From assembly GCF_005144885.1 (NCBI RefSeq), contig NZ_CP039690.1:434001-498000 (forward strand): DNA of 64,000 bases, in the 5' to 3' direction. A model generated the notes under the pieces. The model did not search any database, was not told the origin of the DNA, and worked only from the letters and a program-made list of their open reading frames with translations. The position numbers and the translations under genes are program-made. Source of the stretch: Phreatobacter stygius. Lineage in GTDB: Bacteria > Pseudomonadota > Alphaproteobacteria > Rhizobiales > Phreatobacteraceae. Positions 46,176-63,691 of the stretch are shown one piece after another. The number at the start of each line of letters is the position of its first letter. Position 1 is the first letter of the stretch.

Positions 46176-47535
46176 GTCGTGTCCCGATTGGTGGTGTAAC
46201 TGACGGGTGGTCATCGGCGGTTGCCGGTTAGGTTTGGGTTGCGACGACCAACCCCGAACCGAGAGATCCACCGATGACCGACGAGATGATGAACCTGCGC
46301 GGGCTGCTGGAGAAGAGCCCCGACGCCGATTTGCTGCGCGAGATGATCGGCTTTGCCGCCGGGCGGCTGATGGAGCTCGAGGTCAGCGGCCTTGCCGGCG
46401 CCGGCTTCGGCGAGAAGAGCCCGGACCGCCTGGCCCAGCGCAATGGCTATCGCGAGCGGGATTGGGAGACCCGCGCCGGCACGGTCGAGCTGCGCATCCC
46501 GAGGCTACGCAAAGGCTCCTACTTTCCGGGCTTTCTGGAGCCGCGCCGGCTGGCCGAGAAGGCGCTGACCGCGGTGATCCAAGAGGCTTACATCCAGGGT
46601 ATCTCGACCCGCTCGGTCGATGACCTGGTCAAGGCGATGGGCATGAGCGGCATCTCGAAGAGCCAAGTCAGCCGGCTCTGCGAGGAAATCGACCAGCGCG
46701 TCCATGCCTTCCTCGACCGGCCGATCGAGGGCGACTGGCCCTATCTGTGGATCGACGCGACCTATGTGAAGGTCCGCCAGGCCGGCCGGATCGTCTCGGT
46801 GGCGGTGATCGTGGCGGTCGGTGTAAGCGGCGACGGTCGGCGCGAGGTGCTGGGCATGGATATCGGCCCCTCCGAGGCAGAGACCTTCTGGACGGCGTTC
46901 TTGCGCAAACTGGCCAGACGCGGCCTGCGCGGCGTAAAACTCGTCGTCTCCGACAGCCACGAAGGCATCAAGGCGGCGGTCTCCAAGGTGCTCACCGCGA
47001 CCTGGCAGCGCTGCCGCGTGCACTTCATGAGGAATGCGCTCGCCCATGCCGGCCGCAGCGGGCGGCGCGTTGTCTCAGCCTTCATCGCCACCGCTTTCGC
47101 CCAAGACAATGCAACGGCCGCCAGCCAGCAATGGCGCCGGGTCGCCGACCAGCTCAGGCCAACGGTGCCGAAACTGGCGGCTCTGATGGATACCGCCGAG
47201 ACCGACGTGCTGGCCTATATGACCTTCCCGACGCAGCATCGGGCGAAGCTCCACAGCACCAATCCGCTGGAGCGCGTCAACGGCGAGATCAAGCGCAGGA
47301 CCGAGGTGGTCGGCATCTTCCCCAACGAGGCCGCCATCGCCCGGCTCGTCGGCGCGATCCTGCTCGAACAGAACGATGAATGGGCCGTCCAGCGGGCCCG
47401 CTACATGACCCTGGAAACCATGGCCGGCCTGAGCGATGATCCTAGTGTCGGCCTGCCAGCCGTGGCAGCCTGACCAGCCCGGCCTATGCCGGTGATCGTG
47501 GGGCCTTGCGCCAGCTACACCACGCTACGGGACAT
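46176..47535 (+). mobile_element. IS256-family insertion sequence
   Basis: GTCGTGTCCCGATTGGTGGT begins at 46176; the inverted right end, rising to about 47535-47538, reads GTCATGTCCCGTAGCGTGGT. About 24 of 30 terminal positions match. GGGATGTC occurs at 46171-46178 and again at 47545-47552, but the second copy is nine bases too far out for a simple 8-bp target duplication, so exact ends are uncertain. It lies just upstream of the type I secretion ABC gene, transcribed away from it. Confidence 0.8.
46274..47473 (+). CDS. IS256-family transposase
   Basis: 399 residues, standard length, intact. The mutator-type DDE motifs are [11 protein letters not shown] (first Asp), [14 protein letters not shown] (second Asp) and [29 protein letters not shown] (Glu region, with the family's LERxNxEIKRR). 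An N-terminal zinc-free DNA-binding part with [21 protein letters not shown] precedes the catalytic core. With no frameshift or stop, the element may still be active. Confidence 0.97.
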
Positions 47536-47962
47536 GACCCCGGTGGGATGTCGCCGAGGACTCCATAGCCCTAGTTCGACAGGCAGAAGGAGCTGTCGTG
47601 GCCGAGACGATCAATCGGCAAATTCACAGGAAATCGCCGCAAAAAACTTCCGCGATATCAACCGGATACCCGAACCGCCTACGTCTGGCGGAGCAATATG
47701 TGACCGCCCCGGCATTCGCTCGGCCCCCGCCAAGCAGAACTACTACGCAGCGGATAAATTTCAATGGCGGCGTCAAATGATGCCCACGGACCCAAAAAAA
47801 CTGCGCCTCGCCACCGCGCAGGCCTATTCTTTCTGATTTTTGTCGATTTGACGGAAAATCGTCAACAACCTGGAGGCTGTCGACGACTCCAGATGTCAAC
47901 ATACAGCAACGGTCACGAAATCAGGCATTGCAGGTGTGGCTCGATACGATCGAGCGCTCCTC
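47536..47962. other. Spacer without recognised gene
   Basis: Between the IS256 right end and the first gene of the glycan locus the sequence is richer in A+T than the IS and has no open frame with a protein-like composition. The short frames present lack ribosome-binding sites. This is the boundary between the secretion pair and the glycan locus. Confidence 0.5.
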
Positions 47963-50995: not shown

Positions 50996-53056
50996 TTAGC
51001 GAGGCTGTCTACTGGGACGACTGAAAGATGCGAGAAAACTGCTGCAGAATTGTGGGCATTTCTTCGTCAGATTCCTGTTGCGCAGATTGCTGACCGACAT
51101 CATGGCGGCGACGCCGAACCATGACAGGACAGCGGCCGCGACAAGCGGCAGCCGCCAGACGGATGAGGGCCACAGGTACCGAAAAAGGCGCCTCTCCACA
51201 AGCCGAAGCCGCCGCTTCGTTGCACCGCCAGCGAACCGCGCCGATACACGATAGCCGACCCAGTCCGATGGCAGCAGTTGATCCACATACTGAGCCAGTT
51301 CGATAGAAAAATTGCTGGGATCGATCTCGGATTGCACATGGTCGACATAGACGGACAGCGTGCCGTCGCGCTTGATCAGACGCTCGGCCTTCTCCAGCAT
51401 CTTTCGCATCTCGCGGACATTCGATCGATACATGTGAATGAGAACGTTGTCGTAGCTCCCATCCGGATGGGTGGGCCCGCCCGTACCGGCGTCGCCGCTC
51501 TCAGCGAGCCAGGCCTCCAGTCCCAGGTCGACGTCGAACGTCGGCAATTTGCTAAAGTAGGAGGCGAGAGAACCAGCTTCACTGCAGATCAGCAGGTTGC
51601 GCTGGCCGGGTCTCGTCGATACCCCGCCGAGCCAATCGAGCACCAGCCGGCAATCGAGCCACAGATAATGCCATATCGGTACATTCGGCCGACGCTGCGC
51701 GAGCATCCGCGCCCGTCCAAGCATGCTGGCATACAGGCTGGCAGCAACCCTTCTCGTCCGGCCGACGAGACTGCCTTTCGGAGCGACCGCTGTGGTCTCA
51801 GCGGAGGGAGCACTCAGCTCAGATCGTCTGGCAATCTCCAGAGGCAGGTCGCTGTCAGCGTTCCCCCCGAACCTGAGAGACGCCCACGCTTGAACCCCGA
51901 ACACCCAGTAGAAGTGATCGACATGGTCCAGCGGCGTAGTGCTCATCTCGCGCTGCATCACCCCCATGAAATCAGAAAGCCCGGTGCGAGCGCTCGCGAG
52001 GTCGGCCGGCAGGTCTTCCGCATGAAACAGAACATCAACCTCGGCGAAACGCCGATGCTCTCGCGTCGTCCAGACCGACAGCTCCGACGCGATCTCCCGC
52101 GGCGTTGACGAACCGCCGGTAAGCAACTCCCTTTCTTGCGCGACCGATTGGAGCTCGAGCATGAAAAAGTCGTCGGAGTCGTCCAAAATGGTGAACTCTC
52201 CGCTCGGCACCAACTCTGGAACAAACCCGTAATCGCAGTACGAATTGATGCTCCCCAATGGCACTTCCGGCTTGATCGCCAACATGAAAATCAAGTGGTA
52301 GCGGGCCAAAAGCGTTGAGCGGTCCACCTGCCAATAGATCTGGTTGTGCGTCTTGCAGGTCACCAATTCCTGCGTGACGGTCTTGGCCATCACTGTTGGA
52401 TGGAGATGGTCAAACGCGAGCTTGACCAATTGCCGCGACGACATGCGAAGCACGCCGTCTTTCGGATCGATCGCTGCGCTCAATTCAGGGAGAACGCTCT
52501 CCGTGCCCGCCCTCAGGGACGGCGCCATGACGCACCGCCTGCCCTTCTGGAGTTCGCCCACCAATTTGCGCAGGGCGCCGTCGGAAAGGACGAAATCGGA
52601 ATTCATGAAGATGAAATGCGTGTTCGTTTGCTCCGAACCGCTGTCGAGTATGCCGCGGGCAAATGCCAGCGTTAAAGTCACTCCATAGACGCCGATCGAA
52701 ATCAGGTCGTCGATAAAAATATAACGAATGTTACAAAGCTCGCTAAGCCTGGAAAAAGCCGGCTCTTCGTCGAATGTCGCCCGGCTATCTCTCGACGTCA
52801 TGATCAGGATTTCCAGATCCGTCTCGGACGCCACGTAAGGAAGATTACCCTCGGCGAGATAGGACGGGATCGAAACCCTTGCGAACTCCTCAATGTATCT
52901 GGCGCCCCAAATCGCGGCGAGGAATTTAACCTTCAATCGTTCAGTCAAATTTTTGGTCCAGACTTGAGGGAACCCAATCCCGCAATTAAACACGTGACGG
53001 CGCTGCAGCCCCGTCGGCTCCAATGCCGCCCACCACGAAGCCCTGAGACAAGGCAA
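50996..53056 (-). CDS. Large two-part protein: GT-like N-terminus, methyltransferase-like middle
   Basis: 686 residues from a TTG, but the true start may be near residue 37-43 (TTG codons before KVKFLAAIWGARYIEEF). Residues ~43-330 look like a GT-A type glycosyltransferase: FLAAIWGARY, ILIMTSRDS, HFIFMNSDFVLSDGALRKL resembling a donor-binding acidic motif, and CVMAPSLRAG. Residues ~470-600 resemble a methyltransferase fold without its glycine motif (YDNVLIHMYRSNVREMRKMLEKAERLIKRDGTLSVYV). A single helix near 640-660 (LPLVAAAVLSWFGVAAMM) could anchor it. No family named; functions are inferred from fold features. Confidence 0.55.
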   Translation of the reverse strand: MPCLRASWWAALEPTGLQRRHVFNCGIGFPQVWTKNLTERLKVKFLAAIWGARYIEEFARVSIPSYLAEGNLPYVASETDLEILIMTSRDSRATFDEEPAFSRLSELCNIRYIFIDDLISIGVYGVTLTLAFARGILDSGSEQTNTHFIFMNSDFVLSDGALRKLVGELQKGRRCVMAPSLRAGTESVLPELSAAIDPKDGVLRMSSRQLVKLAFDHLHPTVMAKTVTQELVTCKTHNQIYWQVDRSTLLARYHLIFMLAIKPEVPLGSINSYCDYGFVPELVPSGEFTILDDSDDFFMLELQSVAQERELLTGGSSTPREIASELSVWTTREHRRFAEVDVLFHAEDLPADLASARTGLSDFMGVMQREMSTTPLDHVDHFYWVFGVQAWASLRFGGNADSDLPLEIARRSELSAPSAETTAVAPKGSLVGRTRRVAASLYASMLGRARMLAQRRPNVPIWHYLWLDCRLVLDWLGGVSTRPGQRNLLICSEAGSLASYFSKLPTFDVDLGLEAWLAESGDAGTGGPTHPDGSYDNVLIHMYRSNVREMRKMLEKAERLIKRDGTLSVYVDHVQSEIDPSNFSIELAQYVDQLLPSDWVGYRVSARFAGGATKRRLRLVERRLFRYLWPSSVWRLPLVAAAVLSWFGVAAMMSVSNLRNRNLTKKCPQFCSSFLASFSRPSRQPR

Positions 53057-54122: not shown

Positions 54123-55328
54123 GTGGCTTGTCTGATTTGTGCGTCGGGGGCTGTCCGGGAACAGCTTGACGTCGGTTGTCACCCCGTCTCGACATTCTTC
54201 CTTCAAGAATCGAATGCGCCGGAGCGTGATTTCCGTCTTGCGCTGGGACAGTGCGAAGACTGCGGCACGATCCAAAGCATGGAGCCTGTTCCCCACGACG
54301 CGCTCGTACCGCCCTATGATTGGCTATTCGCGCGCGAGCCGGAAGAGCACCTCGATGGCGTGGTCGAGCAGATCCTGGCTTTGCCCGGCGTCAACACCAA
54401 CAGCGTGATCGGAGCCCTGACGTCGAAGGATGACACCACCGTCGAGCGCTTCCGGCGGAAGGGCTTCCTGAACACCTGGCGCGTGAAGCTCGACGAGGAT
54501 CTCGGCGTCGCCAATCCGGCTGCCAATATCGAAACCGTGCAGAAGCTCACGACACCGGACCGCATGGCGACAATCGCCGCGCGGCGGGGTGCGGCCGATG
54601 TCCTGATTGTCAGGCACATCATGGAGCATGCCGAGGACCCGCGTTCGTTTATCCAGGGTATCGCCGCGCTGGTGAAGCCGGGCGGGATTGTCATGGTGGA
54701 AGTACCCGACTGCACCACCAGCCTCAGGCTTCACGACTACTGCATGCTCTGGGAGGAGCATTCGCTTTATTTGACGCCGGAGACGTTCGAGCCAATGCTA
54801 TCGATCGGTGGCTTGGAGCCGATCCGCACGGATGTGTATCAATTGCCGTTCGAAAACTCTCTTGTGCAGCTCGCGCGCAAGACGGGAACCCCGGGCCCGA
54901 TCCGCAAAAGCCCGGCTGCGCGCGCGCAGGTTGGGCTGCTTGAGAGCTATGCCCAGGCCTACCAGCCTGCACGGCACACCCTGCGCGCCTCGTTGGAGCG
55001 GTTCAGGGCAGAGAGAGGGCCGATCGCACTTTTCGGCGCCGGACACCTTGCCTGCGCGTTCGCCAACTATATGGGCGTGGCTGACCTCATCGATTTCGTC
55101 GCGGACGACACGCCACAAAAGCAGGGTAAATTTCTGCCCGGAGGGCGGCTGCCTATCCTTCCATCGGCGGCCCTCGTGGACAAGGGGATCAACCTCGCGC
55201 TGCTTGCTCTTTCGATCAACAACGAGGACGCTGTCATAGCGCGCAATGAAGCTTTTGTTCACGCAGGCGGCACGTTCCGATCCATTTTCCGGGCCAGCCC
55301 GCGTTCGGTCTTCGCTGGTGGGTTGTAG
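54123..55328 (+). CDS. C-methyltransferase-like protein with altered SAM site
   Basis: 401 residues from a GTG with GGAAGG seven bases upstream. The layout copies the sugar C-methyltransferase at 48686: N-terminal CLICAS and CEDCGT cysteines, RHIMEHAEDPRSFIQGI, LHDYCMLWEEHSLYLTPE as the catalytic region and a C-terminal GAGHLACAFANYMGVADLID domain. The glycine-rich motif I is replaced by SVIGALTSKDDTTVERF, so SAM binding may be lost or changed. It precedes the Wzm/Wzt genes and may instead be a structural or amide-forming relative. Confidence 0.75.
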   Translation: MACLICASGAVREQLDVGCHPVSTFFLQESNAPERDFRLALGQCEDCGTIQSMEPVPHDALVPPYDWLFAREPEEHLDGVVEQILALPGVNTNSVIGALTSKDDTTVERFRRKGFLNTWRVKLDEDLGVANPAANIETVQKLTTPDRMATIAARRGAADVLIVRHIMEHAEDPRSFIQGIAALVKPGGIVMVEVPDCTTSLRLHDYCMLWEEHSLYLTPETFEPMLSIGGLEPIRTDVYQLPFENSLVQLARKTGTPGPIRKSPAARAQVGLLESYAQAYQPARHTLRASLERFRAERGPIALFGAGHLACAFANYMGVADLIDFVADDTPQKQGKFLPGGRLPILPSAALVDKGINLALLALSINNEDAVIARNEAFVHAGGTFRSIFRASPRSVFAGGL

Positions 55329-55419: not shown

Positions 55420-56286
55420 ATGACGATCCCCACAATGCCCGACCTCGAGACGAAAAGGGGTCCGGACAAAAAGGTGCTCGTATCGCCGGCCCCCGGCGGC
55501 CCGTTCGCCATCGCGTTGCGTGATCTAGCCGAGGCGGTGCGGCTTGCGCCTGTGTGGCTGCATGCAGGGTGGATCGACGTGGTCTGGCGCTTCCGGCGCA
55601 CCTGGATCGGGCCATTCTGGCACACGCTCGGGCTTGCCGCGTTCGTACTGACGATGGGCGTGGTCTGGAGCACGATTTTGCGTCAAGATCCCTTGCAGTA
55701 TTTTCGTTATGTCACTGTAAGCCTGATCGTCTGGGCCCTGATCGCATCGTTTGTCACCGAAGGCACGGGCATACTGGTCGCAGGCCAGTCGACTGCACTA
55801 TCCATGCGCTTCCCATTCTTTGCCTTCGCCTTCGCTCATGTCTGGCGCGCGTTGCTCTTGTTCGCACATCATTTTCTTCTCTATGTCCTCGTGATGGTGG
55901 GCACGCTACACTCGCCGGGGTGGCCGTCTCTCCTCGCGATTCCAGGGCTGCTGCTGCTGACGGCGAACGGTGTGTGGATGAGCCTGCTTTCCGGGCTTCT
56001 GTGCCTTCGCTGGCGGGATCTCGCCCCGGCCACCGGGACTGCGATGCAGATAGCGCTGTTCGTGACGCCGGTCTTCTGGCCCAAGGAAATGCTGGGCCCC
56101 CAACTGGCCTTCGCTGCCGAGTTGAATCCTTTGTTTCACATGGTCCGCATCGTACGGGAACCGTTGCTCGGCATCACGCCCCCTTTGGTGAGCTGGGTGT
56201 GGGTCGCGAGCACGCTTGCTGCCGGCTCAGCAGTGACGCTATGGGCCTACGGTCGGCATCGCGACCGCATACCCTATTGGTACTGA
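55420..56286 (+). CDS. wzm: Wzm-type ABC permease for polysaccharide export
   Basis: 288 residues with an amphipathic N-terminal segment and about six membrane helices. Typical elements are VWRFRRTWIGPFWHTLGLAAFVLTMGVVWS (start of the ABC2 domain), the loop TALSMRFPFFAFAFAHVWRAL, and LFVTPVFWPKEMLG followed by LNPLFHMVRIVREPLLG, the conserved export-permease motif. It forms the channel for lipid-linked glycan across the inner membrane. The ATPase gene begins 12 bases later. Confidence 0.93.
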   Translation: MTIPTMPDLETKRGPDKKVLVSPAPGGPFAIALRDLAEAVRLAPVWLHAGWIDVVWRFRRTWIGPFWHTLGLAAFVLTMGVVWSTILRQDPLQYFRYVTVSLIVWALIASFVTEGTGILVAGQSTALSMRFPFFAFAFAHVWRALLLFAHHFLLYVLVMVGTLHSPGWPSLLAIPGLLLLTANGVWMSLLSGLLCLRWRDLAPATGTAMQIALFVTPVFWPKEMLGPQLAFAAELNPLFHMVRIVREPLLGITPPLVSWVWVASTLAAGSAVTLWAYGRHRDRIPYWY

Positions 56287-56298
56287 AGGGACATCCCC

Positions 56299-57393
56299 GT
56301 GGCACGTCTGACGGTTGAAGGCGCTTGGGTAGAGTTCCGCGTATCGCTGGCGCGAGGACGCCGCGCAGGCTTGTCACGGACGGGCGGTCAGATCGACCTC
56401 GAGCGCGGCATGGTGACGGCGCTTCGCGACATATCCTTCGAATTGCGCGAAGGCGACAGGCTCGGCCTGATGGGTCACAACGGTGCGGGCAAGTCGACCA
56501 TGCTGCGGCTACTAGCCGGAGTCTATCCGCCGACCCGCGGCCGGATCACCAGCATCGGCACGATATCAACCCTTTTCAACGCCACTCCTGGTCTCAACAT
56601 CGATGGCACCGGTCGCGAGAACCTCATCACGTGCGGACTGCATCTCGGCCTGACCAGACGCCAGATCGCTGCAAAAATGGATGAGATCATCGATTTCGCT
56701 GAACTCGGCGACTATATCGACCTGCCGGTGCGCATCTATTCTTCTGGCATGATGACCCGCCTTGGTTTCTCGATTGCCACGGCGGTCGAGCCCGAGATCC
56801 TTCTCCTCGATGAGGGCCTGGCGACCGGCGACGCGCAGTTCGCGCAGAAGGCCGAGCGCAAGATGAACGAGCTCATCACCCGTTCGTCGATCCTCGTCAT
56901 CGCGTCGCATTCTGAAGCGCTTCTAGCCAGCATGTGCACTCGCTGTCTGCTGTTGGAGCACGGGCGCGTTATCTCAGATGGTCCGGCCGAGACACTCGTA
57001 GCGTCCTATCGCGCCTCGGTGATCGAGGCCGCTCGGACCGACGACTTGAACGGACTGAAACGTGCGTACGAGATGGCGACCGACATGGCGCGTCGTGGCG
57101 AGAGGCCGCCTCTGGAACTGGAGGAACAGGGACTTCGTCATGCTCTGACCATCGCGCCCGATGATGCCGGCATGTGGCAACGTTATGTAAGTGTGCTTAC
57201 CATGCAGGGTAGATCGGTTGCGCCGCAGATCGAAGTGCGAATGATTCTCGCTATTCTGGCAAACGATCCTTCGCGCCTCGACCTGAGAAACCGCCTTGAC
57301 GCGATCCTCGCCGCCTCCGCCGATGACATCGGCGAAGACATTCGTGCGCTTGCTCGCGAGGCGGCGCGGCAGACGGCATCGTTGCCAAACTGA
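56299..57393 (+). CDS. wzt: Wzt-type export ATPase with an unusual repeat tail
   Basis: 364 residues from a GTG. Residues 1-240 are a standard polysaccharide-export ATPase: Walker A GHNGAGKSTMLRL, signature IYSSGMMTRLGFSIA, Walker B ILLLDEGLATGD and H-loop ASHSEAL. Instead of the beta-sandwich carbohydrate-binding domain found in Wzt of the O9a type, the tail holds two 37-residue helical repeats (266-302 and 303-339; consensus QGRxVPIxxExRxLxAxL). The same repeat opens the TylF-like protein at 58640-59782. Those repeats may recruit that methyltransferase. Confidence 0.9.
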   Translation: MARLTVEGAWVEFRVSLARGRRAGLSRTGGQIDLERGMVTALRDISFELREGDRLGLMGHNGAGKSTMLRLLAGVYPPTRGRITSIGTISTLFNATPGLNIDGTGRENLITCGLHLGLTRRQIAAKMDEIIDFAELGDYIDLPVRIYSSGMMTRLGFSIATAVEPEILLLDEGLATGDAQFAQKAERKMNELITRSSILVIASHSEALLASMCTRCLLLEHGRVISDGPAETLVASYRASVIEAARTDDLNGLKRAYEMATDMARRGERPPLELEEQGLRHALTIAPDDAGMWQRYVSVLTMQGRSVAPQIEVRMILAILANDPSRLDLRNRLDAILAASADDIGEDIRALAREAARQTASLPN

Positions 57394-57414
57394 CCAGCGC
57401 CGCCACGGCGCCTG

Positions 57415-58236
57415 TCATCTGTTGTAGCTTCCGAGCACCTCCGCGGGGACGGAGCCCACGCTAGTGCTGGTTTCCACGGTGCCCATGAAGGGGACATTCT
57501 TTTGCTTCCGGTAGACGATCTGGAGGGCGATCACCGGGATCCCTGTCCGATCAAGCACCGTTTCGCGCTCGACCTGCCCGATCAATTCGAGGCGCTTGGT
57601 GAGGGCTGGAAAATAGGATTGATACTGGCGGGCCGATGCGAAGATGTTTTCGTTTGAAACCGGCCCATCAAACCACATATCGACAACTTCATATTGGTTA
57701 TAGCCCGCCAGATCGAAGAAAAATCGGCTCGTATAGCAATAGTAGCCGTGATCGACGAAGCCGACGCTAGGCACGGAGTGCATGATCAGCCCGCCCTCCT
57801 TCGTCGCGGCGTGAATCGTCGCAAACACGTTCATCTGGTTGAGAATGTGCTCGCTCGTACCGAAATTGAGCACCGTGTCGTAGGCGCCGACCATATTTTC
57901 GGGCAGGCGGCTGGTGTTCAGGTCGACGACTGTGGTCTTATACCCAACCGCGATGTCGATCGCGTCGTAACCCATGCCGGCCTCCTCGAACATCTCGCCG
58001 ACGAAGGACTGGTTGAGCGCGCTCCCGGAGGCATCGGCAAGCGAGCCCGCTGCAAATCGTTCCGCCCACGTGTCGAGGTCGGCGCGCGGCCGGGGATTGT
58101 GACGCCGAACGAAAGCCGCGACTTCTTCCGCAGTGGCGGTGTAAAGGTTAGAGCTGCCGTAATCCAGCACCTTTCGCCCTGCTGAAAGCAATCCGTAGCG
58201 CTCCATTACGTGAACGCTCCCCATGCTAATTCCCAT
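57415..58236 (-). CDS. SAM methyltransferase-like protein
   Basis: 273 residues from the ATG at 58236, with GGAG eight bases upstream; longer frames lack support. The core has VLDYGSSNLYTATAEEV as a degraded motif I (GSSN instead of GxGxG), VGYKTTVVDLNTSRL and YDTVLNFGTSEHILNQMNVF, and MHSVPSVGFVDHGYYCYTSRFF, a layout of class I methyltransferases of glycan loci. The gene is convergent with wzt and shares no repeat with the TylF-like protein. SAM use is likely but not certain. Confidence 0.65.
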   Translation of the reverse strand: MGISMGSVHVMERYGLLSAGRKVLDYGSSNLYTATAEEVAAFVRRHNPRPRADLDTWAERFAAGSLADASGSALNQSFVGEMFEEAGMGYDAIDIAVGYKTTVVDLNTSRLPENMVGAYDTVLNFGTSEHILNQMNVFATIHAATKEGGLIMHSVPSVGFVDHGYYCYTSRFFFDLAGYNQYEVVDMWFDGPVSNENIFASARQYQSYFPALTKRLELIGQVERETVLDRTGIPVIALQIVYRKQKNVPFMGTVETSTSVGSVPAEVLGSYNR

Positions 58237-58639
58237 AGTAATAACTCCGTTTATTGCGAGTGGGTGGCGAACACAGTATCGATCGCGGCAGGCGTGGGCG
58301 GGCGCTGATAACACATCCCCGGAGGGCCTGCTATCGATCGCCCTCGATTGCTCGACTGCCAGCATGTTCCTGGAGAGGTGGGGGCCCACTCCGAAAAGAT
58401 CGCCAACTGGCCGGCATCGCCGCCAACAATGGCCGCAGCAGCTACGGTTGGAGATCAGAGACCACGGATGAACTCCGCCCCGCAAACCTAGCGCCGAAGA
58501 CCGTACCCCGCCCCGGCTTCAGCGACAAGATCATCTTCTTACGCGGGCAGAGCGCGAGACCCCGATAGCTCTTCGCCAACTCGCGACGAGGAAGGCGAAA
58601 TTCGCAAAATTGGCTGGACCTCTCGTGGAAAATCCATTG
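58237..58639. other. Intergenic region, no gene seen
   Basis: About 400 bases upstream of the methyltransferase gene and downstream of the TylF-like gene, both on the minus strand. No frame with start, ribosome-binding site and protein-like composition was found. The size suggests the downstream gene has its own promoter. Confidence 0.4.
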
Positions 58640-59782
58640 TCAGCCACCACTTCTCCCGAGAAACCACGACCATTTCGACGGCACAGGCCTTTCCTCCGAA
58701 GCTATTTTGATCCCCAAGCGCCCTGAATAGTCGATGCGATTGAGCAACAACGGCACCTTTTGTTCGGCGATGTACTCGTCGATGGCTTGCCGCGCCCCGA
58801 GGAAATGCCCGTAGTCATCGATGATCAGGACGCCACCTGCACACAAGCGCGGGAAAAGATGGATCATCTCGTGCCGCGTCGATGCGTACCAGTCGGTGTC
58901 GAGACGTAGGAGCGCGATGGATTCCGGCGCCGCGGCCGGCAGGGTATCCTCGACCATGCCTTTGACGAAATGGATCCGCTCCATCGGATACCCTGTCCGC
59001 GCAACGTTGGCGCGGACGTCGTCGAGGCTCGCATAGGCCCAATTGCTCTGCGTCTCACCGCGAGAATGGGGCAGCCAGCCATCGATTGCGCGGTTGCCGA
59101 ACATGTCGACATCCTTCGCCGCGTCGGGCTGAGGCAAGCCTTCAAAAGTGTCGAACAAATAGATGTCGCGCTCGGTGCGACCGAGCGCCTTGAGGGCCGC
59201 CAGGGCAACCATGATGCTGCCGCCGCGCCAAACTCCACACTCCACGATCGCACCAGGTATGGCGGCGCTTTCGATATATTCTATCGCCTTGTAGAGCGCG
59301 TACATGCGCTCGACCGACGTCATGGTGTAGCGTCGCGCGCTCTCGAGGATGGGAGCGAAGTCCGGGTCGAAATCGCCGAACTTCGAGCGCTGGTCATAGT
59401 TTTCCGCCTCGGACTGGAAGTCGACATCGGTCTGCGAAGCCTCTTCGCCGGCCAGACCAAGGATGGGCGGCGGCGGCGGCTTCTTGCCGAGGCCCACCTG
59501 GACGATGCGGAGACGCTCCTTCAGATCGGCCCGATCGGGCTCAAGCTCCATCAGCGCCAGCAGCGCACGCTCCTCGAGATCGATCGGCACCAGCCTTCCT
59601 TGCTCGGCAAGCACAGCGCAAAGGCGCTGCAGAAGGTCCGAACGCGTGGGGTGGGCGCGCAGATGAATTCGCAGGCTGCGCTCCTCCATGTCGATGGGGA
59701 CCGGCTTTCCCTCGCTCAGGAGAGCCGCGACCTCGTGGAGGATCCTGTCGTCGTCTGCCGAAGTGCTGGAAGTGTTGGTCAT
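58640..59782 (-). CDS. TylF/MycF-like O-methyltransferase with N-terminal repeats
   Basis: 380 residues from the ATG at 59782. Residues 24-97 are two exact-length 37-residue repeats (EGKPVPIDMEERSL..., QGRLVPIDLEERAL...), the same repeat found at the end of Wzt. A proline linker (KKPPPPPI) leads to the TylF methyltransferase domain: GAIVECGVWRGGSIMVALAAL, DIYLFDTFEGLP, RLDTDWYASTRHEM and GVLIIDDYGHFLGARQA with the metal-binding Asp residues. These enzymes methylate sugar hydroxyls using Mg2+; here they may cap the glycan before export. Confidence 0.9.
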   Translation of the reverse strand: MTNTSSTSADDDRILHEVAALLSEGKPVPIDMEERSLRIHLRAHPTRSDLLQRLCAVLAEQGRLVPIDLEERALLALMELEPDRADLKERLRIVQVGLGKKPPPPPILGLAGEEASQTDVDFQSEAENYDQRSKFGDFDPDFAPILESARRYTMTSVERMYALYKAIEYIESAAIPGAIVECGVWRGGSIMVALAALKALGRTERDIYLFDTFEGLPQPDAAKDVDMFGNRAIDGWLPHSRGETQSNWAYASLDDVRANVARTGYPMERIHFVKGMVEDTLPAAAPESIALLRLDTDWYASTRHEMIHLFPRLCAGGVLIIDDYGHFLGARQAIDEYIAEQKVPLLLNRIDYSGRLGIKIASEERPVPSKWSWFLGRSGG

Positions 59783-59915: not shown

Positions 59916-60986
59916 TCACGGTATGCGCGGCTTCGCGCTCGACGCCAGACGTCCCAACCGCGGCGCAAAGCCCCGCCGGGACAGCCACGTCGTCGCGAGC
60001 CCGGTGAACGAGGTCGGCCGCTCTCTGAGAGTGAGCCAGGCGAGGGCGACCAATCGGCCGAGCGGGCCACTGAGGGAGGCGGCCGCGGCAAGGACCACCC
60101 GCCCGATGGGACCGCGGCCGCCCATCTGCACCAGCACCTCTGAGTTCATTGGCCGCGCCTGCACAGCCAGGCGGCTAACCGCGAAGCGCCAGCGCCGTTC
60201 GAATGACTCCGGATACCAATCCGGGAAAGCAGGGTCAGCGCGCATCATTTCGCGTGCGAGGATGAGCCCCCTCAGGGCCCCCTCCGCATCGGCGGCCTGC
60301 CCTCGCGACAGTCCGGTCGCGCGAATCTGCCAAATCACGCCCGTGACGGGGGCAAAGCAACAGCCATGGAGGAAGGCCAGCCGCCGTAACGCATAGCCGT
60401 CTGCCATCGGGCCAAGCGCGGGGTCGAAGCCGCCTGCCTCAACGATTCGATCCCGACGCACCACGGCAGCCCCGGTCACGATCCAGTTGTCAAACCGCTC
60501 GAAAAGGCCCGCCACCTCGGCGGGCGTGAAATGTTTCGGGTGAAGCGACGGACGCACCGGCGGGCGGCAGCTGATCTCCCCGGTGTCCATATCGACGACC
60601 TCACCCTCGGCGCAGGCGAAGGCTGCGCCCGGGAAGCTCGCAAGCAGATCAAGCGTGGCCTTGAAAAGGCCCGGCTTGGTCAGGTCGTCGGCGGCGCCAA
60701 AATAGACACAGGCTCCGCGAGCCTCCTGCAAACCGCGATTGAGGGCCCGGATGGCGCCGCCATTTTCCGGCAGGGCGACGATGCGAAGCTGGGGGTAACT
60801 ATTGCGCAGGCGCTCGAGGACACCAAGACTGTCATCAGTCGAGCCATCATCGACGACTATGATCTCATCGGGAGGCGGTACTTGCTCCGCAGCAGCCCGA
60901 ACGGCCGCGCCGATATGGGCGCCGTGGTTGAAATTAGGAATGACGACCGAGAGGATGATAGCATCTTCCGCGCTTACGGATGTCAT
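59916..60986 (-). CDS. GT2-family glycosyltransferase
   Basis: 356 residues. The GT-A core is SVVIPNFNHGAHIGAAVRAAAEQ, EIIVVDDGSTDDSLGVLE, then NRGLQEARGACVYFGAADDLTKP with the DxD-like Asp pair, and AAVVRRDRIVEAGGFDPALGP, the usual acceptor-domain step. The C-terminus has an amphipathic stretch (GRVVLAAAASLSGPLGRLVALAWL) that may touch the membrane. It uses a nucleotide sugar to extend the glycan; donor and linkage are not deducible. It is transcribed upstream of the TylF-like gene, 133 bases away. Confidence 0.92.
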   Translation of the reverse strand: MTSVSAEDAIILSVVIPNFNHGAHIGAAVRAAAEQVPPPDEIIVVDDGSTDDSLGVLERLRNSYPQLRIVALPENGGAIRALNRGLQEARGACVYFGAADDLTKPGLFKATLDLLASFPGAAFACAEGEVVDMDTGEISCRPPVRPSLHPKHFTPAEVAGLFERFDNWIVTGAAVVRRDRIVEAGGFDPALGPMADGYALRRLAFLHGCCFAPVTGVIWQIRATGLSRGQAADAEGALRGLILAREMMRADPAFPDWYPESFERRWRFAVSRLAVQARPMNSEVLVQMGGRGPIGRVVLAAAASLSGPLGRLVALAWLTLRERPTSFTGLATTWLSRRGFAPRLGRLASSAKPRIP

Positions 60987-61395: not shown

Positions 61396-62919
61396 GTGGC
61401 CGACGATAGCCCGGCCTCTCGCCAATTCGGAGTGATGCGATTGCAGTCCAGCGCCGATCGAATCAGGTTGAATGTCCCGAACGGCAGCCGCGTGGCGTTC
61501 GTTTCCGGCAATTTCAACATCCTTCATCCTGGACATCTGCGGCTATTGCGCTTTGCGTCGGATCTCGCCGACGTGCTTGTCGTAGGCCTCAACCCGGACG
61601 GCACGTCAGGAGTGACCGTTCCCGGGGAGATGCGCATCGAGAGTATTCTGGCGCTGTCGTTTGTACAGAATGCCGTGCTCCTGTCGGAAAGCCCAACACA
61701 GTTCATTTCCCGCCTGAAGCCTGATTTCGTGGTCAAGGGCAAGGAATTCGAGCAACTGAATAATCCCGAGGCCAAGGCTGTCGTGGGCTATGGCGGCAAG
61801 CTCATCTTCTCGTCAGGCGAAATGCGGTTCGCCTCGATGGAGTTACTGCAGAAAGAATACACCGATACCGTCTTTTCGACCATTCACAAGCCGCCGAACT
61901 TTCACGCCCGACATCGCTTCGAAATGGCTGACCTCCACAGGCTGCTCGGAGATTTTGAGAAAGTTCGCGTCACTGTCATCGGCGACATCATCATCGACGA
62001 CTACATTACCTGCGAGCCGCTGGGCATGTCCCAGGAGGACCCGACGATCGTCGTGACGCCGCTCGAAACCAAGACTTTCGTCGGCGGAGCCGGTGTCGTT
62101 GCGGCACACGCGCGAAATCTCGGGGCGCAGACCCGCTTCTTCAGTGTGTTCGGCGCGGATGACGCCGCGGACTATGCCTGCGCAGCCTTGAAAGACATGA
62201 ATGTCGAGGTCCATGCTTTTCGAGACGAGACCAGACCGACGACCCGCAAGCAGCGCTATCGTGCCCATAACAAGACCCTGTTGAGGGTCAACCATTTGCG
62301 GCAGCACGCGGTGAGCGCGGAGATCAGCGATACGATGCTGGATCAGTTGACGGCAGTCTTGAACGATACCGACCTCATCATGTTCTCCGACTTCAACTAC
62401 GGCTGCCTGCCCCAGCGCTTCGTCGACCAGGTCACCAAGCTGGCGAGAGAGCGCGGCATTCCCATGACCGCCGACAGCCAGGCATCGTCGCAGATGTCGG
62501 ACATCTCCCGCTTCCGCGGCATGGCGCTGGTCACGCCCACCGAGCGCGAAGCGCGCCTGGCGCTCCACGACTCGAACTCGGGCCTCGCTTTCCTCGCGCA
62601 GGACCTGCACGAAAAGGCGATGGCCGAGAGCGTCATCATTACGCTCGGCGGCGAGGGCATGCTGATTCTCGGCCGCGGCGAGGACGGCCAGCCGCTAACG
62701 GACAGGCTCCCTGCGATGAATAAGGCCCCGAAGGATGTCGCGGGAGCCGGCGACAGCCTTTTCACCGCAGCCTCCATCGCGCTTTGCACCGGGGCAGACA
62801 TTTGGCGCAGCGCCTATCTGGGCGGCATAGCTGCCGCCTGCCAGATCTCCCGCGTCGGAAACTCGCCCTTGAAGGCCAGCGACATTCTCATTGAACTCGA
62901 CCAGCCCGATATCGAGTAG
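61396..62919 (+). CDS. Fused nucleotidyltransferase-PfkB kinase (HldE-like, reversed order)
   Basis: 507 residues from a GTG; an ATG at 61435 is an alternative. Residues ~25-165 are a cytidylyltransferase-like domain (VAFVSGNFNILHPGHLRLL with the HxGH motif, VVKGKEFEQLNNPEAKAVV). Residues ~185-500 are a PfkB kinase (VTVIGDIIIDDYI, FVGGAGVVAAHARNLGA, VITLGGEGMLIL, DVAGAGDSLFTAA with the catalytic Asp). In HldE the kinase comes first, so the order is inverted. Activation of a sugar phosphate by phosphorylation then nucleotidylation is likely; heptose is one candidate substrate. Confidence 0.88.
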   Translation: MADDSPASRQFGVMRLQSSADRIRLNVPNGSRVAFVSGNFNILHPGHLRLLRFASDLADVLVVGLNPDGTSGVTVPGEMRIESILALSFVQNAVLLSESPTQFISRLKPDFVVKGKEFEQLNNPEAKAVVGYGGKLIFSSGEMRFASMELLQKEYTDTVFSTIHKPPNFHARHRFEMADLHRLLGDFEKVRVTVIGDIIIDDYITCEPLGMSQEDPTIVVTPLETKTFVGGAGVVAAHARNLGAQTRFFSVFGADDAADYACAALKDMNVEVHAFRDETRPTTRKQRYRAHNKTLLRVNHLRQHAVSAEISDTMLDQLTAVLNDTDLIMFSDFNYGCLPQRFVDQVTKLARERGIPMTADSQASSQMSDISRFRGMALVTPTEREARLALHDSNSGLAFLAQDLHEKAMAESVIITLGGEGMLILGRGEDGQPLTDRLPAMNKAPKDVAGAGDSLFTAASIALCTGADIWRSAYLGGIAAACQISRVGNSPLKASDILIELDQPDIE

Positions 62920-62944
62920 CGGCATCCAGAGGAGTAGACGGAAG

Positions 62945-63691
62945 ATGCGGGCATTGCTCCTTGCAGCCGGCCTCGGGACACGGCTGAGACCACTCACCCT
63001 CACCGTGCCCAAGTGCCTCGTTCCTGTGCACGGCAAGCCCTTGCTCGGCTATTGGCTGGAGCATCTCTTTGCTGGTGGAATCGAGCGCGTGCTCATCAAC
63101 ACGCATTGGCTCGCCTTGCCGGTGCGCGACTATGTAGCCGCCTCGCCTTGGCGCTCTCGGATCGATCTGGTCCACGAGGAGGAGCTCCTGGGGACCGGCG
63201 GCACGGTCCTCGCGAATCGCGACTGGCTGAACGGCGCGCCTTTCCTGCTCGCCCACGCGGACAATCTCACCGACTTCGACGTTTCAACGTTCCGGCGCCG
63301 TCACGAGGATCGGCCGAAGGGGTGCGCCATGAGCATGCTGGCCTTCAGGACCGACGACCCGAGATCCTGCGGAGTATTGGAGCTGGATGCCGCCTGCGTG
63401 CTTCAAGCGTTCCACGAGAAAGTTCCGGATCCTCCGGGCAATTTGGCCAACGCGGCTGTTTATATCTGCGAGCCCGAGATAGCCGAGTTCATCGCGAGCC
63501 TGGGCAAGCCGATCGTCGACTTTTCCACGGAAGTCATCCCCAGATTCATCGGCGAGACTCTGGCCGTGGAGACCTCAGGATATCACCGTGATATAGGCTC
63601 GCCCGCGAGCCTCAAGGCCGCAGAGAGAGAGTATCGGCCACATCGGGACGCGGCCGATAAATCCGGCCCCGGTTGGTTGACATCGAATTGA
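62945..63691 (+). CDS. Sugar-1-phosphate nucleotidyltransferase
   Basis: 248 residues from the ATG at 62945, behind a GGAGTAGACGGAAG stretch. The signature MRALLLAAGLGTRLRPLTLTVPK with the phosphate-gripping Arg and Lys is at the N-terminus, then PLLGYWLEHLFAGG, FLLAHADNLTDFD with the metal Asp, and NAAVYICEPEI. Members make NDP-sugars such as GDP-mannose or GDP-heptose (HddC-like). It follows the fused kinase by 25 bases, which makes a common pathway likely. Confidence 0.9.
   Translation: MRALLLAAGLGTRLRPLTLTVPKCLVPVHGKPLLGYWLEHLFAGGIERVLINTHWLALPVRDYVAASPWRSRIDLVHEEELLGTGGTVLANRDWLNGAPFLLAHADNLTDFDVSTFRRRHEDRPKGCAMSMLAFRTDDPRSCGVLELDAACVLQAFHEKVPDPPGNLANAAVYICEPEIAEFIASLGKPIVDFSTEVIPRFIGETLAVETSGYHRDIGSPASLKAAEREYRPHRDAADKSGPGWLTSN

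Follow-up and report, generated by a model that had tools for sequence, protein, structure and literature searches.

A TPR-like helical module shared by a Wzt-type exporter ATPase and a TylF-family O-methyltransferase in a Phreatobacter stygius glycan locus

Analysis of a 64,000-nucleotide stretch of the Phreatobacter stygius genome (NZ_CP039690.1, positions 434,001 to 498,000; hereafter the window) uncovered a domain shared by two proteins of one glycan locus, the ATPase Wzt of an ATP-binding cassette (ABC) exporter and an O-methyltransferase of the TylF family. This shared domain is real and rare, a common role for it is plausible, and the pair of carriers was found in a single genome. The module lies C-terminal to the ATPase domain in Wzt and N-terminal to the catalytic domain in TylF, and the two carriers are 2.2 kb apart.

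A first-pass annotation of the window had described four units of 37 residues that align without gaps, two in Wzt (W1 and W2) and two in TylF (T1 and T2). Their coordinates proved exact, with Wzt codon 266 starting at 57094 on the forward strand and TylF codon 24 at 59713 on the minus strand, and the units passed shuffle controls. The four Wzt–TylF unit pairs share 11–14 of 37 residues, T1 and T2 share 16/37, and W1 and W2 share 6/37; among 20,000 shuffles per pair, the real score was never reached for four pairs, once for W1/T2, and 30 times for W1/W2. The consensus frame proposed for all four units fits T1, T2, and W2, but W1 fits it less well (RGERPPLELEEQGLRHAL). In a single BLASTP comparison, the Wzt tail and the TylF N-terminus are 39% identical over 67 gapless residues (E 8e-13). 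A profile-based check agrees: when three Wzt tails were made into a profile, with TylF sequences excluded, it scored 42.5 bits on the TylF module versus 9.1 bits for the best of 501 controls (500 shuffles and one reversal; 485 reported). Chance likeness is ruled out by the shuffle controls, and the Wzt tail and the TylF module are homologous.

AlphaFold predicts a normal ATPase domain for Wzt, followed by a confident helical tail (mean predicted local distance difference test (pLDDT) score 90.1; ten-residue means of 89–97 across residues 251–340; 20 sequences used, three with the tail). Tail helices are placed at residues 250–265, 272–285, 290–302, 309–322, and 327–339, plus a last helix at 346–360. 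For TylF residues 1–110, predicted from two sequences that both come from the window (mean pLDDT 85.6), helices fall at 4–23, 30–43, 48–60, 67–80, and 85–97. Both predicted modules are regular arrays with two helices per repeat, and their five helices (A-B-A-B-A) run in step: a constant shift of 242 residues separates every boundary except the start of the first helix. In these models the module is slightly longer than two units, as the helix preceding unit 1 also belongs to it.

The closest relatives of this fold appear to be tetratricopeptide repeats (TPRs), although the repeat period is 37 residues in all units versus 34 in the canonical TPR, three residues longer. The best matches of the module profile to solved structures are designed and natural TPRs (E 4e-5), and the canonical two-repeat alignments printed require a three-residue gap. 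No Pfam TPR cut-off is reached by the module: the best match is TPR_19 on the related tail of genome G029, described below (19.5 bits, cut-off 25), the P. stygius Wzt tail reaches 13.6 bits with TPR_CcmH_CycH (cut-off 42), and the TylF module has no TPR match. Foldseek listed 50 matches, with probabilities up to 1.00, a best E of 0.022, and none at E ≤ 0.001, which we take to be TPR proteins or designs on TPR scaffolds; structure searches with whole Wzt gave mostly ABC and other ATPases among the matches listed. Paired helices and a conserved turn G and P are shared with the TPR superfamily, to which the best profile and fold matches also point. The longer period and the Pfam scores below cut-off set the module apart, and the template modelling score to canonical TPRs is about 0.38 (root-mean-square deviation about 7 Å). 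The module resembles a repeat of TPR origin in which the link between the two helices is longer and the curvature different.

Within its own genome (one contig of 7,354,671 bases) the module is restricted to these two proteins, the only ones matching at E < 0.1. A query with the TylF module at E up to 10 returned TylF and Wzt only (Wzt tail 6.5e-9), and a profile search placed TylF and Wzt, which both built the profile, at 1.8e-44 and 1.3e-42, with the next matches at 0.25 and 0.63. No third open reading frame (ORF) in the window passed the inclusion threshold of the unit profile (next best E 1.4). Ordinary TPR_19 matches number ten in this genome (E up to 0.001), and all of them lie outside Wzt and TylF. 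A generic genome-wide TPR is therefore ruled out as the full explanation, since there are only two carriers despite these ten matches, even if the fold still appears TPR-derived. The possibility that the repeat is a common TPR of many proteins, raised in the first-pass annotation as a case against it, holds by half: the predicted fold is of TPR origin, yet the 37-residue form is limited to two proteins here.

Wider searches covered 12, 397, 385, and 398 genomes at the family, order, class, and phylum levels, with overlaps, or at most 1113 of 97,973 genomes in total; those of order, class, and phylum scored only the best 13–14 first-look candidates per genome. At the phylum level, 18 of 398 genomes matched at E ≤ 0.001, including that of P. 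stygius itself, and the best match outside it (35.7 bits, E 2.9e-8, with a profile including TylF) is a TPR protein (L017). Of the matching ORFs at order, class, and phylum level, 21 were checked; 18 of them are TPR proteins of the ordinary kind, over Pfam cut-offs, and the remaining three are unrelated (two response regulators and one cNMP-binding protein). Two further searches, of 22 genomes and of one genome, gave no match, nor did a query of plasmids with the TylF module. No published description of the module on Wzt or TylF turned up in the literature searched, which was covered in part.

The tail of Wzt was compared with the best 80 of at least 573 confirmed Wzt relatives. Past the equivalent of residue 245, 55 of these extend by ≤40 residues, 5 by 41–140, and 20 by >140, and by eye the long tails listed seem rich in beta structure, like carbohydrate-binding domains. 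No ORF matching the module was found in the 80 loci, flanks of up to 10 kb included (best E 0.17). The P. stygius Wzt shows no carbohydrate-binding domain, its tail being predicted as all-helical with no Pfam match past the ATPase domain at E ≤ 1. Such a domain had been regarded as missing here, in contrast to O9a-type systems. This contrast does not carry over to the nearest relatives: because 55 of 80 have no C-terminal domain, the tail is an addition and not a substitute, and its origin as a replaced carbohydrate-binding domain is rejected for them.

Tailed Wzt proteins also occur in G011, of the same genus, and in G029, of another family of the same order; ten other genomes of the genus gave no match to the tail at E ≤ 0.01. 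The three tailed proteins form one clade (support 100/99) when 83 ATPase domains are placed in a tree; adjoining this clade (94/88) are short Wzt proteins of Magnetospirillum, Rhizobium, and a Bradyrhizobiaceae bacterium. Since they group as one clade beside short Wzt, the tail was, on this tree, gained once among the sampled Wzt, on a type without a carbohydrate-binding domain.

On the methyltransferase side, the catalytic part matches PDB 4cdz, NovP, and MycF, and judged by sequence the catalytic domain is of the plain TylF/MycF/NovP type; unlike these enzymes, the protein carries an N-terminal helical module without a match in any relative listed. Plasmids yielded 21 records with a TylF relative; all matches stay below 80% coverage of the protein, and the 20 listed all stop short of the module; no TylF relatives were found on viral contigs. 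The two closest plasmid proteins (57% and 53% identical; 228 and 230 aa) match from residue 137 only, so the module is an addition to TylF, just as it is to Wzt. Searching with whole TylF in 13 genomes (that of P. stygius, eleven more of the genus, and G029) gave other TylF-like matches in G007 and G011 only, through the catalytic part alone. The start of TylF is most likely the ATG at 59782, which has AAGG 6 bases upstream; an alternative, longer ORF starting with TTG overlaps the neighbouring gene.

The individual units differ in their affinities. W1 clusters with its counterparts, the first units in the two other tails, while W2 has 14/37 identities with each of T1 and T2 versus 8/37 with each second unit of the other tails, a nearness with a bootstrap value of 0.95 and a tree support of about 0.7–0.8 over 37 columns. 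This is a weak hint at a common constraint on W2 and the TylF units, and the same pattern would arise if the second units in the other tails had diverged fast. Identical residues use the same codon at 1 of 14 positions in W2/T2 (5.2 expected) and at 5 of 14 in W2/T1 (4.8 expected). As codon matches are not above expectation, we reject recent copying between wzt and tylF, whether by gene conversion or by duplication.

We put at about one half the probability that the module is a recruitment domain that brings the O-methyltransferase into the export complex, via the Wzt tail or via a partner shared with it; the sequences do not lead us to rank direct contact between Wzt and TylF above a shared partner. 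A shared assembly role is reasonable because the module is homologous in the two proteins and TPR-type modules usually bind proteins or peptides. Recruitment is further favoured by the matching helices, by the closeness of the only two carriers within one glycan locus, by the added state of the module on both proteins, and by the single clade of tailed Wzt. The TPR-derived 37-residue module would first have served Wzt, docking some component of the glycan machinery of the locus onto the ATPase. Later the methyltransferase would have acquired the same module and so joined the same assembly, drawn in by binding the Wzt tail or the usual partner of the tail, so that the chain, perhaps at its end, would be methylated at the exporter. 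Protein binding, the common complex, and the place of methylation are what we infer here. That TylF caps the glycan chain was an assumption of the first-pass annotation; it may instead decorate internal sugars or act on a sugar nucleotide.

Several points weigh against such recruitment. The genes wzt and tylF lie on opposite strands and so are not one operon, and homologous modules can bind unrelated partners, so likeness alone is no proof that the two meet. A solenoid of 2.5 repeats is small, and the net charges (−2 and −4) reveal no electrostatic complementarity. A module-bearing TylF was not found in G011 or G029 (drafts, about 99% complete), leaving the pair of tailed Wzt and module-bearing TylF in the P. 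stygius genome only; the co-occurrence in other Wzt and TylF genes that the first-pass annotation had proposed to look for thus came to two more tailed Wzt and no module-bearing TylF beside them. Because tailed Wzt occurs in two genomes without a detected module-bearing TylF, TylF was probably not the first partner of the tail, and genes shared with one or both of the other tailed-Wzt loci are better candidates for that partner. The earlier proposal that the module couples capping to export therefore survives as a reasonable shared role in assembly, but coupling to TylF is unlikely to have been the original job of the tail.

Limiting export to finished chains is understood where Wzt reads a chemical cap; to our knowledge, coordination with chain modification is less clear for exporters without a carbohydrate-binding domain. 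The tailed Wzt clade, in which the tail probably serves protein docking, and a methyltransferase with the same module make a concrete and readily testable candidate for coordination by contact. Though this is less likely than not, the locus could encode an ABC exporter in which protein docking, and not glycan recognition, links chain modification to export: the Wzt tail would pair with the TylF module directly or on one scaffold, so that the exporter would carry the methyltransferase, which would methylate chains on entry.

Among other explanations, the one that survives best is that each module aids only the dimerisation or folding of its own protein, TylF having gained it by domain shuffling within the locus. 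The tail in two genomes without a detected module-bearing TylF favours this, as does the W2/T2 codon count, by which no recent copying maintains the likeness; we nevertheless consider it unlikely, given that both carriers of the genome sit in one glycan locus and, more weakly, that W2 is nearer to T1 and T2 than to its counterparts in the other tails. There is a smaller chance that these are degenerate ordinary TPRs, alike through the TPR consensus and not through a shared module. TPRs as the best profile matches in the PDB and the many ordinary TPR proteins among the matches at the phylum level and among the checked ORFs point that way, but the period of 37 in all units, with its three-residue gap to the canonical two-repeat alignments, the restriction to two proteins in a genome with ten TPR_19 matches, and the best-domain scores with the TylF-free Wzt-tail profile (35.6 bits for the TylF module versus 23.9 for the best ordinary TPR in the loci scanned, about 12 bits ahead) all speak for a distinct module. 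Least probable is a helical domain for glycan or lipid recognition, standing in for the O9a jelly-roll and letting TylF hold the same chain: the tail does occupy the position of the carbohydrate-binding domain of other Wzt, and both carriers do belong to one glycan locus, but the fold matches are of the TPR kind, a class of peptide and protein binders, and 55 of 80 Wzt relatives lack any such domain.

Galactan-type Wzm–Wzt exporters include those of Klebsiella O1/O2. The closest ATPase is the galactan-type Wzt of M. abscessus (9qhj), 44% identical to that of P. stygius; the NCBIfam model of this type spans 244 positions and the chain of M. abscessus 262 residues, whereas the P. stygius protein runs about 115 residues beyond the model. 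In capped systems, the carbohydrate-binding domain of Wzt reads the modified chain end (PMC9445017, PMC3482155). The E. coli O9a and Aquifex Wzm–Wzt systems with WbdD resemble the present locus in ABC export of a lipid-linked glycan, a C-terminal domain on Wzt, and a methyltransferase in the pathway (PMC3482155, PMC9445017), but that C-terminal domain is a jelly-roll, unlike the all-helical TPR-like tail predicted here. Two precedents exist for the recruitment proposed here. The non-catalytic region of WbdD recruits the polymerase WbdA, so that the terminator is a scaffold too (PMC3482155). A TPR-like helical bundle occurs in the K. pneumoniae O4 chain terminator ORF7, likewise a glycan-modifying enzyme of an ABC-export system; ORF7, however, is a Kdo transferase with a coiled coil, and the Wzt of that system is predicted to carry a carbohydrate-binding module (PMC11231755). 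A review of S-layer glycans places TPR motifs on other glycan enzymes and, in the text covered, none on Wzt (PMC2943079).

Table 1. Positions in the window of the two module carriers, their repeat units, and neighbouring genes.
Feature	Position	Strand	Basis
C-methyltransferase	54123..55328	+	Pfam Methyltransf_13/14
Wzm, permease partner of Wzt	55420..56286	+	NCBIfam, Pfam
Wzt, galactan/RfbE-type export ATPase with helical tail, 364 aa	56299..57393	+	ABC_tran, NCBIfam, AlphaFold
Helical module of Wzt, residues 250–339	57046..57315	+	Predicted structure
Unit W1, Wzt 266–302	57094..57204	+	Unit alignment
Unit W2, Wzt 303–339	57205..57315	+	Unit alignment
Methyltransferase-like gene between Wzt and TylF	57415..58245	-	Pfam Methyltransf_23, 24 bits, cut-off 27
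TylF-family O-methyltransferase with N-terminal module, 380 aa	58640..59782	-	Pfam TylF, PDB relatives
Helical module of TylF, residues 4–97	59492..59773	-	Predicted structure, residues 1–110
Unit T2, TylF 61–97	59492..59602	-	Unit alignment
Unit T1, TylF 24–60	59603..59713	-	Unit alignment
Glycosyltransferase family 2, upstream of TylF, same strand	59916..60986	-	Pfam Glycos_transf_2, 84.7 bits

A Wzt-type ATPase domain beside a Wzm permease is present, and NCBIfam equivalog cut-offs are not reached. Wzt scores 72.6 bits with Pfam ABC_tran, and its best NCBIfam match is the galactan Wzt/RfbE model (244 bits, cut-off 400); Wzm stays below both the NCBIfam galactan Wzm cut-off (197 bits, cut-off 380) and that of Pfam ABC2_membrane (25.3 bits, cut-off 26.9). 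TylF matches Pfam TylF at 171 bits (cut-off 23), best over residues 151–354. Common to the three tailed-Wzt loci are Wzm (50% and 39% identical to the P. stygius protein in the other two), Wzt (51% and 47%), and the C-methyltransferase (67% and 62%), and the G011 locus also has a WbuC-type cupin 53% identical to that of P. stygius. The family of the gene at 57415–58245 has two homologues in the G011 locus (L116 11375–12331 and 12382–13209; 47% and 55% identical). Both tailed-Wzt loci of the genus further encode a large protein with no Pfam family over cut-off, at window positions 50999–53056 (686 aa) and L116 8771–10702 (644 aa), 34% identical over 357 residues.

Copies of a Mutator-family transposase (PF00872), which we take to be of the IS256 type, flank the glycan locus at window positions 46176–47540 and at L125 15859–17223 (G000:C1 512859–514223), in direct orientation and 98.9% identical over 1365 bases. 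The G+C content in 2-kb steps between them is 0.555–0.658, versus 0.671 for window positions 1–46000, and the glycan locus may be an acquired island. A cytidylyltransferase–PfkB fusion and a sugar nucleotidyltransferase are encoded at 61396–62919 and 62891–63691, and L125 1636–2310 resembles by eye a gene of the G011 locus that is presumably a GmhA-like isomerase; together, the fusion, the nucleotidyltransferase, and the GmhA-like gene suggest a heptose-type precursor pathway.

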